Assembly (NCBI RefSeq): GCF_001310085.1
Contig: NZ_CP012643.1
Coordinates: 5,090,001 to 5,154,000 of the forward strand
Direction of reading: 5' to 3'
Length of the DNA: 64,000 bases
Source: Rufibacter tibetensis
GTDB lineage: Bacteria; Bacteroidota; Bacteroidia; Cytophagales; Hymenobacteraceae
How positions within the stretch are numbered: position 1 is the stretch's first letter; each line of letters starts with the position of its first letter. The notes beneath the pieces are model-generated. The model did not search any database and was not told the DNA's origin. It saw only the letters and a program-made list of their open reading frames with translations. The position numbers were made by a program, and so were the translations under genes. Shown here piece by piece: positions 1,404 through 6,563 of this stretch.

Positions 1404-2651
1404 TTAAGATACCTGCACTCTTTCTTTGGATCGCTTCACATGAGCTCCTACAAAGTCAGAAGACAAAGCCATGATGTACGCTCCAGCTTTTCTGATTTGC
1501 TCCTGCTCTCTTATCAGATTACCCAAGGAAACGGTACCAATCACGCTGAAAGAATCATTTTCCCGCTGAACATTTTGGAGGTTCGTTAATCCTAAAGACA
1601 CAATCAGGTCTGGCTCGCTGCTGCGGAGGTAAACCTCAAACTCAAAATCAAGGGCAAGTGCTGGCGCGTTGGTAGTTTTGTGTAACTTTTTGTATCCGTA
1701 AGAATACCCGCTGTTGATAGAAACTATATCTGACAACACGGCGGCTCCGGTGGGGTGACCACCTGCACCACGTCCTTTGAACAGCTGAGCACCTGAGTAG
1801 GCGCCTTGCACCACTACTCCGTTGAACTCCTGCTCTACCACAAATAAATCATCTGAGGCATCAACCAGACTTGGCAACACTACCGGTACAAGTTCGCCGT
1901 CTGAGGTTAGATGCGCAGAGGCTACCATCTTTATAACAGAGCCGTTCTTTTTGGCAAAGTCACAATCTTCGCCCGATAAATAATCAATACCAAAGAATGC
2001 TACTTCCTCAGGGGCAATTGGTCTGCCAAAGGCATGTGCCGTTAATATGCATAGTTTATGGCGAGAGTCTGCCCCTGCCACGTCTAACCAAGGATCTAAT
2101 TCAGCAAATCCCTTATCTTGCGCTTCTTTCAAAGCTTCGGCGTAGCCTTTCTGCAGTTTGAAGATCTGGCTCAGGATGTAATTGGAAGAACCATTTAAAA
2201 TTCCATGCACCCGCTCCAACGGTTCATTGGAAAAGTACTCCTCAACCGTTCTAATGATTGGAATGCCTCCGGCTACGGCGGCCTCATATAAGAGGACGCC
2301 TCCAAATTCCTGCTGCAATTGAAGGAGTTCAGGCAAGTGGTAAGCAACCAGCTTTTTGTTTGCAGTCACCACTTTCTTACCCCGGCGTAAAGCTTCGGTT
2401 ACAATGGTGTACGCCTCATTGGCATCACTTATGGCTTCCACCAGAATATCCAAGCTTTCATCCTGAAGTACCTCCAGCGGATCATACGTAAAGCTTTCTG
2501 TAGGCAAAGGCCGAAGCTTTTTAGGGTCTTTCACGCAAATACGCTCTACTTTATAAGGAAGCGCTTCTTCGCGGGAAAGGATATCATATAAGCCCTGGCC
2601 TACGCAACCAAACCCAAACAAACCAATTTTTAGAAGACGGTGGGAATCCAT
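1404..2651 (-). CDS. hom: Homoserine dehydrogenase
   Basis: Reduces aspartate semialdehyde to homoserine with NAD(P)H, the branch point to threonine and methionine. The N-terminal Rossmann motif is GLFGFGCVGQGL (residues about 9-20). TANKKLVAYH and the catalytic-domain segments GGIPIIRTVEEY, GILNGSSNYIL and ELDPWLDVAGADSRHK are typical of the family. At 415 residues it has the NAD-binding and catalytic domains but no obvious C-terminal ACT domain, although some sequence remains after the catalytic domain. The start overlaps the end of metX by 22 bases, so the two are translationally linked. It is the last gene of the SAM-riboswitch-controlled operon. Confidence 0.95.
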   Translation of the reverse strand: MDSHRLLKIGLFGFGCVGQGLYDILSREEALPYKVERICVKDPKKLRPLPTESFTYDPLEVLQDESLDILVEAISDANEAYTIVTEALRRGKKVVTANKKLVAYHLPELLQLQQEFGGVLLYEAAVAGGIPIIRTVEEYFSNEPLERVHGILNGSSNYILSQIFKLQKGYAEALKEAQDKGFAELDPWLDVAGADSRHKLCILTAHAFGRPIAPEEVAFFGIDYLSGEDCDFAKKNGSVIKMVASAHLTSDGELVPVVLPSLVDASDDLFVVEQEFNGVVVQGAYSGAQLFKGRGAGGHPTGAAVLSDIVSINSGYSYGYKKLHKTTNAPALALDFEFEVYLRSSEPDLIVSLGLTNLQNVQRENDSFSVIGTVSLGNLIREQEQIRKAGAYIMALSSDFVGAHVKRSKERVQVS

Positions 2652-3685
2652 GTTTTTCTCTGTTGTTTTTTTTGTAAAAAAGTATCTAAAAGATGGCTTA
2701 ACTGAGCCGTCTCTAATAAAAAGCCATCATGTCCGGCTTCTGAATGAATGATTTGAAAAGAAGCATTTGGAATATACTTGGAGACAAAACGCTGCTCATT
2801 CACGGGGAAGAGCTGGTCTTTGTCTACTCCAATCACCAGGGTTTCAGCTTGTACCTGCCGAAGTGCCTCTTCCAGCCCCCCTCTGTTCCGGCCTACGTTA
2901 TGGCTGTCCATCATTTTGGTTAGCTGCCAGTAAGAGAAGGCGTTGAACCGTTTGGCTAATTTTTCGCCCTGGTATTGCTGGTAAGTAGCCGCCCGGTAAA
3001 TCTGTTTCAGATCAGAGGAGCTTTCCTTCTGTGCCTGGTTGTAGGAATTGTAAGTGCGGTAAGACAACAAGGCGACCGACCTAGCAGTTTTCATACCTTC
3101 CAAACCTGCGTCATCGGTGGCAAGTTGCCAAGTCATATCCTGTTCAATGGCCATACGCTGGCTTTCGTTCAGGGCTATGGCCCATGGAGTTTGGCGGGCG
3201 TTTGCGGCAATCTGTACCAGACGGCGGGTAACCTCAGGGTATTCTACTGCCCATTCCAGTGCCTGCTGTCCTCCAATAGAACCACCAATCAAAACGTTTA
3301 TCTGTTCAATTTCCAGATGTTCCCTTAAGGCGTCAAACGCTTTAACAGAATCTCTGATGGTGAGGATTGGAAATTTATGGTAGTAGGGCCTTCCTGTATC
3401 AGGGTTCTGGCTCAAGGGTCCGGTAGAACCATAGCAACTACCCAGGGAATTTGCACAAACTATGAAGTGTTTAGCTGGATCAAAAGTTTTTCCCTCCCCG
3501 AACAAATCACCCCACCAGTCTTTCACGAAGGCGTTACCGGTAAAGGCATGGCACACCCACACCACATTGCTGCTGTCTTCATTCAAAGTACCCCAGGTAG
3601 TGTAGAAGAGTTGGAAGCCGGGCAACGTTTGCCCAGACTCCAACGTGAATTCATCTGTGTAATTAAAAACGCGTCCTTTCAACAT
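2630..3685 (-). CDS. metX: Homoserine O-acetyltransferase
   Basis: Alpha/beta-hydrolase-fold enzyme that acetylates homoserine with acetyl-CoA to give O-acetylhomoserine, the substrate of MetY encoded just upstream. The nucleophile elbow is GGSIGGQQALEW; the acid and His are in VIGVDKDQLFP and HSEAGHDGFLLE. HAFTGNAF near residue 46 and NSLGSCYGSTGP are family signatures. The length of 351 residues is normal. It lies 12 bases after the metY stop codon and overlaps hom by 22 bases, so the three form one operon. The family also contains succinyltransferases; I call the acetyl form from its pairing with an O-acetylhomoserine sulfhydrylase. Confidence 0.95.
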   Translation of the reverse strand: MLKGRVFNYTDEFTLESGQTLPGFQLFYTTWGTLNEDSSNVVWVCHAFTGNAFVKDWWGDLFGEGKTFDPAKHFIVCANSLGSCYGSTGPLSQNPDTGRPYYHKFPILTIRDSVKAFDALREHLEIEQINVLIGGSIGGQQALEWAVEYPEVTRRLVQIAANARQTPWAIALNESQRMAIEQDMTWQLATDDAGLEGMKTARSVALLSYRTYNSYNQAQKESSSDLKQIYRAATYQQYQGEKLAKRFNAFSYWQLTKMMDSHNVGRNRGGLEEALRQVQAETLVIGVDKDQLFPVNEQRFVSKYIPNASFQIIHSEAGHDGFLLETAQLSHLLDTFLQKKQQRKTWIPTVF

Positions 3686-3697
3686 GGCTGTTACTCC

Positions 3698-5121
<1,424 letters not shown>

Positions 5122-5159
5122 CCCCTAAAGAAAAAATTAACTAACTTTAGCTGAAGGGA

Positions 5160-5303
5160 TTAGCGACAACAGCAACAAATATCCGTCATGGAAATTGTGC
5201 GCATTCGCGTAATGGATGAGATAATAATTCGTGTGTTACCGTTTGCCGCCATGGTCAGGTGCGGCGCTGCATTGTCAGAAGTGGCTTTGATTTGATTTTC
5301 CAT
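5160..5303 (-). CDS. Putative poly-cysteine leader peptide of the metY operon
   Basis: A 47-codon ORF running from ATG at 5303 to TAA at 5160. It begins MENQIKATSD and ends MTDICCCCR-stop, so four consecutive Cys codons (TGT TGC TGT TGT) sit just before the last sense codon. Its ATG lies 10 nt after the 3' strand of the riboswitch P1 helix, and its stop is 130 nt before the metY ATG. Internal ATGs at codons 18, 34 and 39 could give shorter versions, the shortest being MTDICCCCR. A run of codons for a regulated amino acid at the end of a leader ORF is the hallmark of ribosome-mediated attenuation. The translation is read directly from the sequence; the regulatory role is inferred. Confidence 0.6.
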   Translation of the reverse strand: MENQIKATSDNAAPHLTMAANGNTRIIISSITRMRTISMTDICCCCR

Positions 5304-5312
5304 CTTCGTATC

Positions 5313-5427
5313 AATTTATATTCCCCAGGTGGCAATATGTCCCCTGGGATCAGGAATTAGCACCTTACACGGCTGGTAGGTTGCTAGAGCTTCATTGAGC
5401 CTGTCTCTCCGCTCTTCTTTATAAATC
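5313..5427 (-). ncRNA. SAM-I (S-box) riboswitch
   Basis: On the minus strand the segment carries the S-box landmarks in order: P1 5' strand ATTTATA (about 5420-5426), AGAGCGGAGAGACAGGCTC, AATGAAGC, TAGCAACCTACCAGCC, the highly conserved GGTGCTAATTCC (5354-5365), a P4 hairpin with arms CCCAGG/CCTGGG (5323-5346), and the P1 3' strand TATAAAT (5314-5320). The aptamer binds S-adenosylmethionine and normally switches off methionine genes, which fits the metY-metX-hom operon downstream. I see no strong terminator directly after it. Instead the leader ORF starts 10 nt later, so the expression platform may act through that ORF. Confidence 0.92.
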
Positions 5428-5455
5428 AACTACCGGAATAATTGACTTGATGCTG

Positions 5456-5486
5456 CAAATCTATCAACCAAAACTTAAACCCCAAA
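5456..5486 (-). promoter_or_regulatory. Bacteroidetes-type promoter of the metY operon
   Basis: On the minus strand TTTG (5483-5486), a 19-base spacer and TAGATTTG (5456-5463) match the Bacteroidetes sigma consensus (TTTG / TAnnTTTG) exactly. Transcription would begin near 5450, about 25 nt before the riboswitch P1 helix. Confidence 0.75.
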
Positions 5487-5578
5487 TAAATTTAGAAATT
5501 TTTTAACATTTATTTTTAAATACAAACAATTGTTAGTAAATGGAGTGCAGAAGGAGGAGATTTGATAAAAGAATAATA

Positions 5579-5608
5579 TTGCCCCGTCTGTATCCTTTTC
5601 TAACTTTG
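5579..5608 (+). promoter_or_regulatory. Bacteroidetes-type promoter of purC
   Basis: TTG (5579-5581), a 19-base spacer and TAACTTTG (5601-5608) match the TTG / TAnnTTTG consensus. The predicted start near 5613 leaves a leader of about 15 nt before the purC ATG, so no room remains for a purine riboswitch. Confidence 0.7.
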
Positions 5609-5627
5609 TCTTCCTTAGTCATCTGCT

Positions 5628-6563
5628 ATGCAAGCGTTAAAAGAAACAAATTTCCACTTTCCAGAACAGACCGGGTTTTACCGTGGCAAAGTAAGGGATG
5701 TGTATTACTTCAAAGACAAATTAGCCCTTGTGGCCACTGACCGCATCTCAGCCTTTGATGTGGTATTACCTAGGGCTATTCCCTACAAAGGACAAGTTCT
5801 TAACCAGATTGCCGCTTCTTTTCTGGAAGCTACGGCCAGTGTGGTTCCTAACTGGGTATTAAACCAACCAGCCCCTAACGTGACTATTGGTCGCCAGTGC
5901 GAAACATTCAAAGTGGAGATGGTGATCAGGGGATATCTGGCCGGACATGCCTGGCGGGAATACAGCGCTGGCAAACGTACTTTATGTGGGGTTACTTTGC
6001 CCGAAGGTTTGAGAGAAAATGATCCTTTTCCAGAGCCTATTATCACTCCTACCACCAAGGCCGCTGAAGGTCATGATGAAGACATCTCAAGAGAAGAAAT
6101 CCTGCGCCAAGGAATTGTCTCTAAACAGGATTACGTCCAACTAGAGGCCTACACCCGAGCGCTCTTTCAAAAAGGTACTGAGCTGGCTGCAGAAAGAGGA
6201 TTGATATTAGTTGATACAAAATATGAGTTCGGGAAAGCAGATGGCATCATTTATGTAATAGATGAAATACATACGCCAGATTCTTCAAGATTCTTTTACT
6301 CAGAGGGTTATGAAGAGCGGCAAAAAAGCGGAGAACCACAAAGACAACTTTCAAAGGAATTTGTACGTCAATGGTTGATTGAGAATGGGTTTCAGGGAAA
6401 AGATGGCCAGCAAGTACCAGAAATGACCGATGCTAAAGTTTCTGAAATCTCTCAGCGTTACATAGAATTATACGAAAAGCTACTGGGCAAAAAGTTCCTC
6501 CCCCAAGACTATGCCAGTCAGCCACATACACTGCAAGAAAGCATTGCGGCCAACATTTTTTAG
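5628..6563 (+). CDS. purC: SAICAR synthetase (phosphoribosylaminoimidazole-succinocarboxamide synthase)
   Basis: ATP-dependent ligation of CAIR and aspartate in de novo purine synthesis. Family signatures are GKVRDVYYF near residue 20, [13 protein letters not shown] near residue 37, [14 protein letters not shown] (about 98-111), [16 protein letters not shown] and [10 protein letters not shown]. At 311 residues it belongs to the longer form found in Bacteroidetes and yeast rather than the roughly 240-residue proteobacterial form. It has its own promoter and is transcribed away from the metY leader. STAS and rnz genes follow on the same strand and may be read through. Confidence 0.96.

Follow-up and report, generated by a model that had tools for sequence, protein, structure and literature searches.

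Introduction

Mycobacteria reportedly carry polycysteine leaderless short ORFs that confer cysteine-responsive attenuation on the sulfur genes behind them, in work said to be that of Canestrari et al. in Mol Microbiol in 2020. The leader described here likewise places a short ORF with a Cys run ahead of sulfur genes, but it belongs to another phylum, and the mycobacterial ORFs are leaderless and are not known to lie behind a riboswitch, whereas the Rufibacter ATG lies downstream of a promoter and an aptamer.

In Rhodobacterales, the uORFC-8-2 motif upstream of cysS combines tandem Cys codons with an intrinsic terminator (PMC8632094). This uORF resembles the Rufibacter cysH leader discussed below in holding its tandem Cys codons inside a stem, but it differs in having two Cys codons and an intrinsic terminator and in its gene and phylum, and it is not described with a riboswitch. 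The present leader precedes a metY operon, and no terminator-like site was found in its region (4990-5640).

Leaders that unite a riboswitch with an ORF are also described. The Salmonella mgtA leader contains a Mg2+-sensing riboswitch and the Pro-codon ORF mgtL (PMC6460261), and thus resembles the present case in joining a ligand-sensing RNA to an ORF whose codons sense translation; that riboswitch, however, needs base-pairing within mgtL itself, and both ligand and amino acid are different. The B12 riboswitches of Mycobacterium tuberculosis metE and ppe2 occur together with uORFs, and ppe2 needs translation of its uORF (PMC11260477); these pair a riboswitch with a translated leader ORF, but with B12 as ligand and reinitiation as read-out, and the uORFs are not described as amino-acid sensors. 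A Xanthomonas SAM-I riboswitch also binds uncharged initiator tRNA (PMC7270179). It shares with our case a met-gene leader, a second tRNA-related input and translational control, but it binds the tRNA directly and is not described with a leader ORF. In Flavobacterium psychrophilum, clues for leader-peptide attenuation before amino-acid operons have been noted (PMC9723704). Among the titles and abstract openings listed from the open-access literature, none concerned a leader ORF with Cys codons that follows a SAM riboswitch, or one from Bacteroidota. The leader analysed here shares with ribosome-mediated amino-acid attenuators a short ORF containing a conserved in-frame run of codons for one amino acid, in this case Cys.

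Results

Organization of the metY-metX-hom leader

The window is the whole stretch of Rufibacter tibetensis DNA that was analysed, 64 kb in length. A first-pass annotation had assigned 5160-5486 to a promoter, a SAM-I aptamer and a 47-codon ORF closing in four Cys codons, Arg and stop, and both the interval and this order are correct (Table 1). The aptamer scored 74.1 bits against RF00162 (gathering score 44.4; E 1.7e-15), confirming the earlier assignment; the match spans model positions 1-108, a full-length aptamer, and is the sole Rfam match at gathering level in the window. The promoter call also stands: TTTG-N19-TAGATTTG corresponds to the Bacteroidota-type promoter consensus, and although the pattern alone is weak (2 found vs 1.14 expected in the window), its position is identical in 14 of 14 Rufibacter metY loci. 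A 9-nt spacer separates the end of P1 from the ATG of the leader ORF, and metY starts at 5029, 130 nt past the leader ORF stop, followed by metX and then hom. The profile queries for metY started one codon 5' of its ATG, and hom is named from its GLFGFGCVGQG motif.

Table 1. Positions of the leader elements and operon genes of Rufibacter tibetensis within the window.
Feature	Position	Strand	Evidence
Promoter-like TTTG-N19-TAGATTTG	5456..5486	-	Pattern match and constant place in Rufibacter metY loci
SAM-I riboswitch aptamer; P1 3' strand ends at 5313	5313..5427	-	RF00162, 74.1 bits
47-codon ATG leader ORF, MENQIK...TDICCCCR	5160..5303	-	ORF list and Rufibacter conservation
Four Cys codons TGT TGC TGT TGT, then Arg and stop	5166..5177	-	TGYTGYTGYTGY match; synonymous-only change
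Segment ACAGCGGCAG, able to base-pair with the Cys codons at 5178-5169; confined to Rufibacter	5104..5113	-	MFE fold, duplex z
metY, O-acetylhomoserine (OAH) sulfhydrylase	3698..5029	-	TIGR01326, E 2.4e-204; PF01053
metX, homoserine O-acetyltransferase	2630..3685	-	NF001209 above cut-off
hom, homoserine dehydrogenase	1404..2651	-	ORF and GLFGFGCVGQG motif

Conservation of the leader within Rufibacter

TGYTGYTGYTGY matches once in the window (5177-5166; 0.27 expected). On its own the Cys run could be chance in a window of this size, and it is conservation that settles its reality. A six-frame leader-peptide search combined with a check for the SAM core showed 14 of 16 Rufibacter genomes to carry the ORF downstream of SAM-I, with its start 47 or 49 nt from the core; the six-frame search did not find it in G012 or G017, each of which has two SAM-I matches. 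The closest metY loci among the best 80 of 586, those of R. immobilis (96% identical) and R. latericius (95%), have the same leader. Eight Rufibacter ORFs of equal length were compared codon by codon. pN/pS is 1.41 over codons 1-20, which are conserved at the nucleotide level (pS 0.053), and 0.76 over codons 21-42, whereas the last five codons, CCCCR, vary only synonymously (pN 0, pS 0.21). This pattern indicates that selection preserves the frame and the Cys codons rather than the peptide, the body of which appears free of protein-level constraint.

Distribution in Cytophagales and other Bacteroidota

RF00162 matches were present in 99 of 100 genomes of the family, 76 of 98 of the order and 127 of 148 of the phylum. 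The set of 210 loci used for comparison is non-random: it consists of the 90 best-scoring RF00162 loci and 120 fetched stretches, namely 60 further places in the order, fetched from at least 80, together with 20 places in the family and 40 in the phylum that were hand-picked for spread. It counts one place twice (L075 equals L208). A strict test demanded an ATG at most 20 nt from P1, an ORF of 15-70 codons and at least three Cys among the last eight residues. Fifty of the 140 sampled Cytophagales SAM-I loci passed, compared with 0.05 in shuffles and with at most 3 for any other amino acid (Leu being next highest). Outside the order, the test was passed by 1 of 24 loci sampled in the remaining orders of the class and by none of 46 SAM-I loci sampled in the remaining classes of the phylum.

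A looser test was passed by 57 of the 140 order loci, spanning 9 of 16 sampled families; L221 and L185 were kept in this set though chance-like. With starts allowed to +120, 28 positives were obtained in the family set and 1 in the phylum set, and with starts to +30, 27 and 0. Within the family, six genera were sampled and five of them gave positives, Rufibacter among these. When start codons were sought from +5 to +16, an in-frame start was located 6-14 nt past P1 in 58 of 59 looser-filter leaders, 26 of the 58 at +9; seven leaders start with GTG. ORF bodies are unrelated between genera by eye, and the spacing and length of the run differ widely among leaders.

The frame was also approached from the run itself. 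A (TGY)3 run lies 50-260 nt past P1 in 51 of 164 loci of the class, and 50 of these 51 runs share a reading frame with a start codon between +4 and +16, the frame being open and its stop falling 3-12 codons from the first Cys; the reverse-strand control gave three runs, one of them in frame. A further set was chosen by the metY protein alone, as the best 80 of at least 586 named loci. A covariance-model scan detected SAM-I in 77 of these 80, and in 55 of the 80 a Cys ORF starts 1-15 nt past P1; the remainder of the best 80 of 586 comprises 19 loci with SAM-I alone, three with SAM-I and a Cys ORF elsewhere, one with a Cys ORF alone and two with neither. Carriers among the named loci include Rufibacter, Pontibacter, Hymenobacter, Cesiribacter, Chryseolinea, Pedobacter, Mucilaginibacter, Saprospiraceae and Lewinella; Algoriphagus, Spirosoma, Belliella and Cyclobacterium have SAM-I alone at metY. 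In a second family of the class, the 30 best-scoring loci showed the Cys ORF at 5 of 9 metY and 0 of 4 hom loci; in this set L255, L263 and L276 repeat L221, L201 and L211.

The first-pass annotation had made its idea depend on recurrence of the frame and Cys run in related genomes, and they do recur in 14 of 16 Rufibacter genomes, 50 of 140 Cytophagales loci and 55 of the best 80 of 586 named loci. A chance or simple-repeat artefact might be argued from the frequency of such runs, one TGY4 match per 64 kb being not rare and 77 occurring in the genome (11 for the reversed pattern). That explanation is refuted by the conserved frame and place, as measured by the strict test against its shuffles, the 50 of 51 runs in frame and the named loci, and we regard its probability as negligible.

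Some metY loci have SAM-I without the Cys run (12 of 48 in Cytophagales). In six such loci of one family (f37; L162, L163, L100, L102, L110 and L119), an ORF of 31-52 codons starts 7-10 nt past P1. These ORFs could represent, we suggest, either a decayed leader or a different sensor.

Genes that follow the Cys ORF

Gene classes were set by short home-made motifs, with which some cystathionine-type genes stayed unclassified and the label 'metX-like' was wrong for L041 and L044. By these motif classes, the Cys ORF occurs at 36 of 48 metY loci and 0 of 35 metH loci of the order (Fisher p 1.7e-13), and at none of 6 cystathionine-type and 2 hom loci. In the 13 genomes in which metY and metH loci were both sampled, it was present at metY in 8 and at metH in none. 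Other positives, identified by Pfam, precede PAPS reductase, sulfite reductase and a second Cys/Met PLP enzyme; further ones precede an aminotransferase class V protein, amino-acid permeases, an antiporter-family protein and a TonB receptor, and two are without a match. At L195, left out of the count, a luciferase-like monooxygenase lies ~1.4 kb past the leader. Cys leaders behind SAM-I at L041, L044 and L194 precede a protein of ~330 residues; a Pfam search at 1e-10 matched neither the L044 nor the L194 protein.

The association with metY and with genes of sulfate assimilation, together with the absence from metH, fits SAM and sulfur status as the two inputs, and the earlier suggestion to this effect thereby gains support. 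A different input has to be weighed here. Cys runs can bind metal, and a poly-Cys nascent peptide might bind metal or sense redox or sulfide, and so halt or release the ribosome irrespective of tRNA charging. A precedent is CruR, a copper-responsive uORF with a Cys motif that acts via translation arrest and Rho (PMC9426467). However, the associated genes are mostly those of sulfur assimilation and homocysteine synthesis, and the run varies widely in spacing and length; we therefore consider a nascent-peptide sensor of the CruR type improbable.

Riboswitch and Cys ORF at separate loci

The 77 TGYTGYTGYTGY matches in the R. tibetensis genome compare with 11 for the reversed pattern. Those not at metY were checked in two batches, 30 requiring ATG and a stop within 4 codons and 46 allowing ATG or GTG and a stop within 8; L278 and L299 would pass the looser rule too, and both are inside longer ORFs, while at L424 the start is GTG and no ORF is seen after the match. 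At one match the run closes a short ORF, MVYSSYIKRMRFCCCSSCCCCC, before cysH (G000:C1 1200509-1200441, minus strand; Rufibacter loci L308-L319), and at another it closes MNRTCFTCCCCKK just before cysteine desulfurase (G000:C1 1782432-1782391, minus strand).

All 12 Rufibacter cysH loci have the Cys leader, and a covariance-model scan gave an RF00162 match at none of them. SAM presence was generally scored by a core-motif regular expression and rechecked by covariance model for L308-L327 and all 80 named loci; calls for L328-L337 and 17 cysH loci of other families are those of the expression. Elsewhere in the family, 18 cysH loci were compared, and the Cys ORF is present at 12, each with a SAM core by this expression. 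Eight of the 18 were rescanned, and RF00162 matched all 8, of which 5 have the Cys ORF. Across the remaining families of the order, 2 of the 17 cysH loci carry the Cys ORF.

The desulfurase mini-ORF is found in 16 of 16 Rufibacter genomes (L456-L471), with 10-16 codons from ATG, three to five Cys codons at its end and its stop 7-13 nt before the gene. Cysteine desulfurase consumes Cys, so that coupling through this mini-ORF is possibly of opposite sign. Elsewhere, in another family of the class, SAM-I lies near an ORF that starts like cysteine desulfurase, as named by motif only (L249, L250, L252, L253 and L258).

The R. tibetensis metH locus has SAM-I without a Cys ORF. With SAM-I alone at metH, the Cys ORF alone at cysH and both at metY, one genome thus displays all three arrangements.

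Pairing and terminators downstream of the run

At Rufibacter metY, the Cys codons are predicted to pair with a segment ~45 nt past the stop (mean duplex z -2.27 vs -0.10 in the control); z lies below -1.5 in 11 of 14 loci and is -3.72 in R. tibetensis. At Rufibacter cysH the corresponding signal is less pronounced, with a mean z of -1.21 (control 0.70) and 4 of 12 loci below -1.5. One arm of a predicted hairpin there is made up of the Cys codons and the stop; 89.2% of its cells are paired and three of its pairs are changed on both sides. Its covariation score of 0.208 vs 0.155 is reached by 7 of 500 shuffles. The signal is modest: 63 of 500 shuffles have three double-change pairs too, and 385 of 500 match the count of pair types. 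A stalled ribosome would block both the metY and the cysH pairing.

Anti-Cys pairing past the run did not hold up as a general feature outside Rufibacter (59 leaders; mean z -0.45 vs -0.40 in the control, 10 and 9 below -1.5). These data bear on the proposal that the TGY repeat is an RNA pairing element within an ORF that is not translated. The Rufibacter pairing and the nucleotide constraint on the first 20 codons (pS 0.053) are consistent with such an element, but 50 of 51 runs share the frame of the start codon, and the leaders of other genera show no pairing excess. We regard an untranslated pairing element as very improbable.

An intrinsic terminator was not supported as a general read-out, terminator-like sites occurring in 8 of 58 leaders and 6-9 in shuffles, that is, at chance. 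Predicted folding between the last 30 nt of the ORF and the gene start is better than in shuffled sequences (mean z -1.68), and the Rufibacter post-ORF consensus fold is weak (-6.0 kcal/mol). A second Rufibacter post-ORF hairpin, drawn by eye, was dropped since its register shifts between species, and a GCGAATGCGC motif common to Rufibacter metY and cysH leaders did not generalise.

The start codon next to P1 and the Met codons

The P1 3' strand is AU-rich and contains TATAAA in 54 of 58 leaders. Bacteroidetes are reported to have no Shine-Dalgarno sequences and to depend on mRNA structure for initiation (PMC6847099), and Barrick and Breaker note SAM-I cases with the ribosome binding site in the 3' side of P1 (PMC2258182). 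At L154 and L207 a metX-like gene, named by eye, itself starts at +9 and +11 past P1, the place taken elsewhere by the start of the Cys leader, which suggests that the riboswitch governs a start codon at that place. From the AU-rich P1, the SAM-I cases with a ribosome binding site in P1 and the L154 and L207 starts, we infer that SAM blocks initiation of an ORF starting there.

This bears on whether the two elements act as one. They could be independent switches in series, SAM-I with a read-out of its own and the Cys ORF a separate attenuator translated regardless of SAM, giving a similar logic without coupling. The parts do occur apart (SAM-I alone at metH of R. tibetensis, the Cys leader alone at Rufibacter cysH), and terminator-like sites are somewhat commoner in metH leaders (6 of 39) than in their shuffles (0-4). 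A start 6-14 nt from P1 in 58 of 59 leaders is, however, tighter than independent parts need, and we think uncoupled serial switches unlikely, if still a serious contender.

Met codons are concentrated late in the ORF. In 53 of 55 distinct leaders, those with at least 25 residues, 5.8% of the last 20 residues are Met, compared with 0.2% of the remaining residues once the start is set aside; in the named set (best 80 of 586) it accounts for 77 of 754 non-Cys residues in the last 20, vs 19 of 1114. AUG is generally avoided near the start in Bacteroidetes (PMC6847099), which may account for part of the Met depletion near the start but not for the enrichment at the end. We hypothesize that the end of the ORF reads charging of both Met and Cys tRNAs.

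Discussion

The leader is probably a two-sensor switch in which SAM controls initiation of the ORF and the Cys codons, perhaps with the Met codons, read tRNA charging. With SAM bound, P1 would close over the AU-rich initiation region and the leader ORF would go untranslated. When SAM is low, ribosomes would translate the ORF and, in its final stretch, meet the Cys run and frequently adjacent Met codons. Where charged Cys-tRNA is available, the ribosome would terminate and leave, and the RNA would refold to an off state, which in Rufibacter would be the pairing of the Cys codons with the segment ~45 nt past the stop. When charged Cys-tRNA is scarce, the codons predict that the ribosome would halt on the run, preventing this pairing and allowing metY-metX-hom to be expressed. 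Expression would be highest when SAM and cysteine are both low. The off state might act through Rho-dependent termination, as a candidate mechanism, through metY translation or in another way. Against the two-sensor switch count the lack of a pairing excess outside Rufibacter, terminators at chance level, the metY loci without a Cys run, the few cysH leaders in other families and the 0 of 46 loci in other classes.

A more specific form of the two-sensor switch can be put forward tentatively, as a possibility we rate somewhat short of probable. SAM-I would be a translational off-switch of the ORF that licenses attenuation, with charging readable only at low SAM in a strict AND gate; Met and Cys would both be read; and the Cys-ORF module would be joined to SAM-I at some genes and separate from it at others, throughout Cytophagales and in at least Pedobacter, Mucilaginibacter and Saprospiraceae.

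Judged by sequence comparison, the leader appears to belong to a known kind, a riboswitch plus ribosome-mediated attenuation, of which the combination of SAM-I with a Cys-codon ORF would be a new form. It suggests how SAM-I can work in bacteria without Shine-Dalgarno sequences and offers a testable explanation for cysteine control in Bacteroidota. The contrasts for such work are ready within one genome, which has loci with the riboswitch only, the Cys ORF only and both, and a start codon ~9 nt past P1 provides a rule for finding more leaders. If the two-sensor switch is true, a natural two-input RNA gate has been built from a riboswitch and the ribosome across a good part of one phylum.
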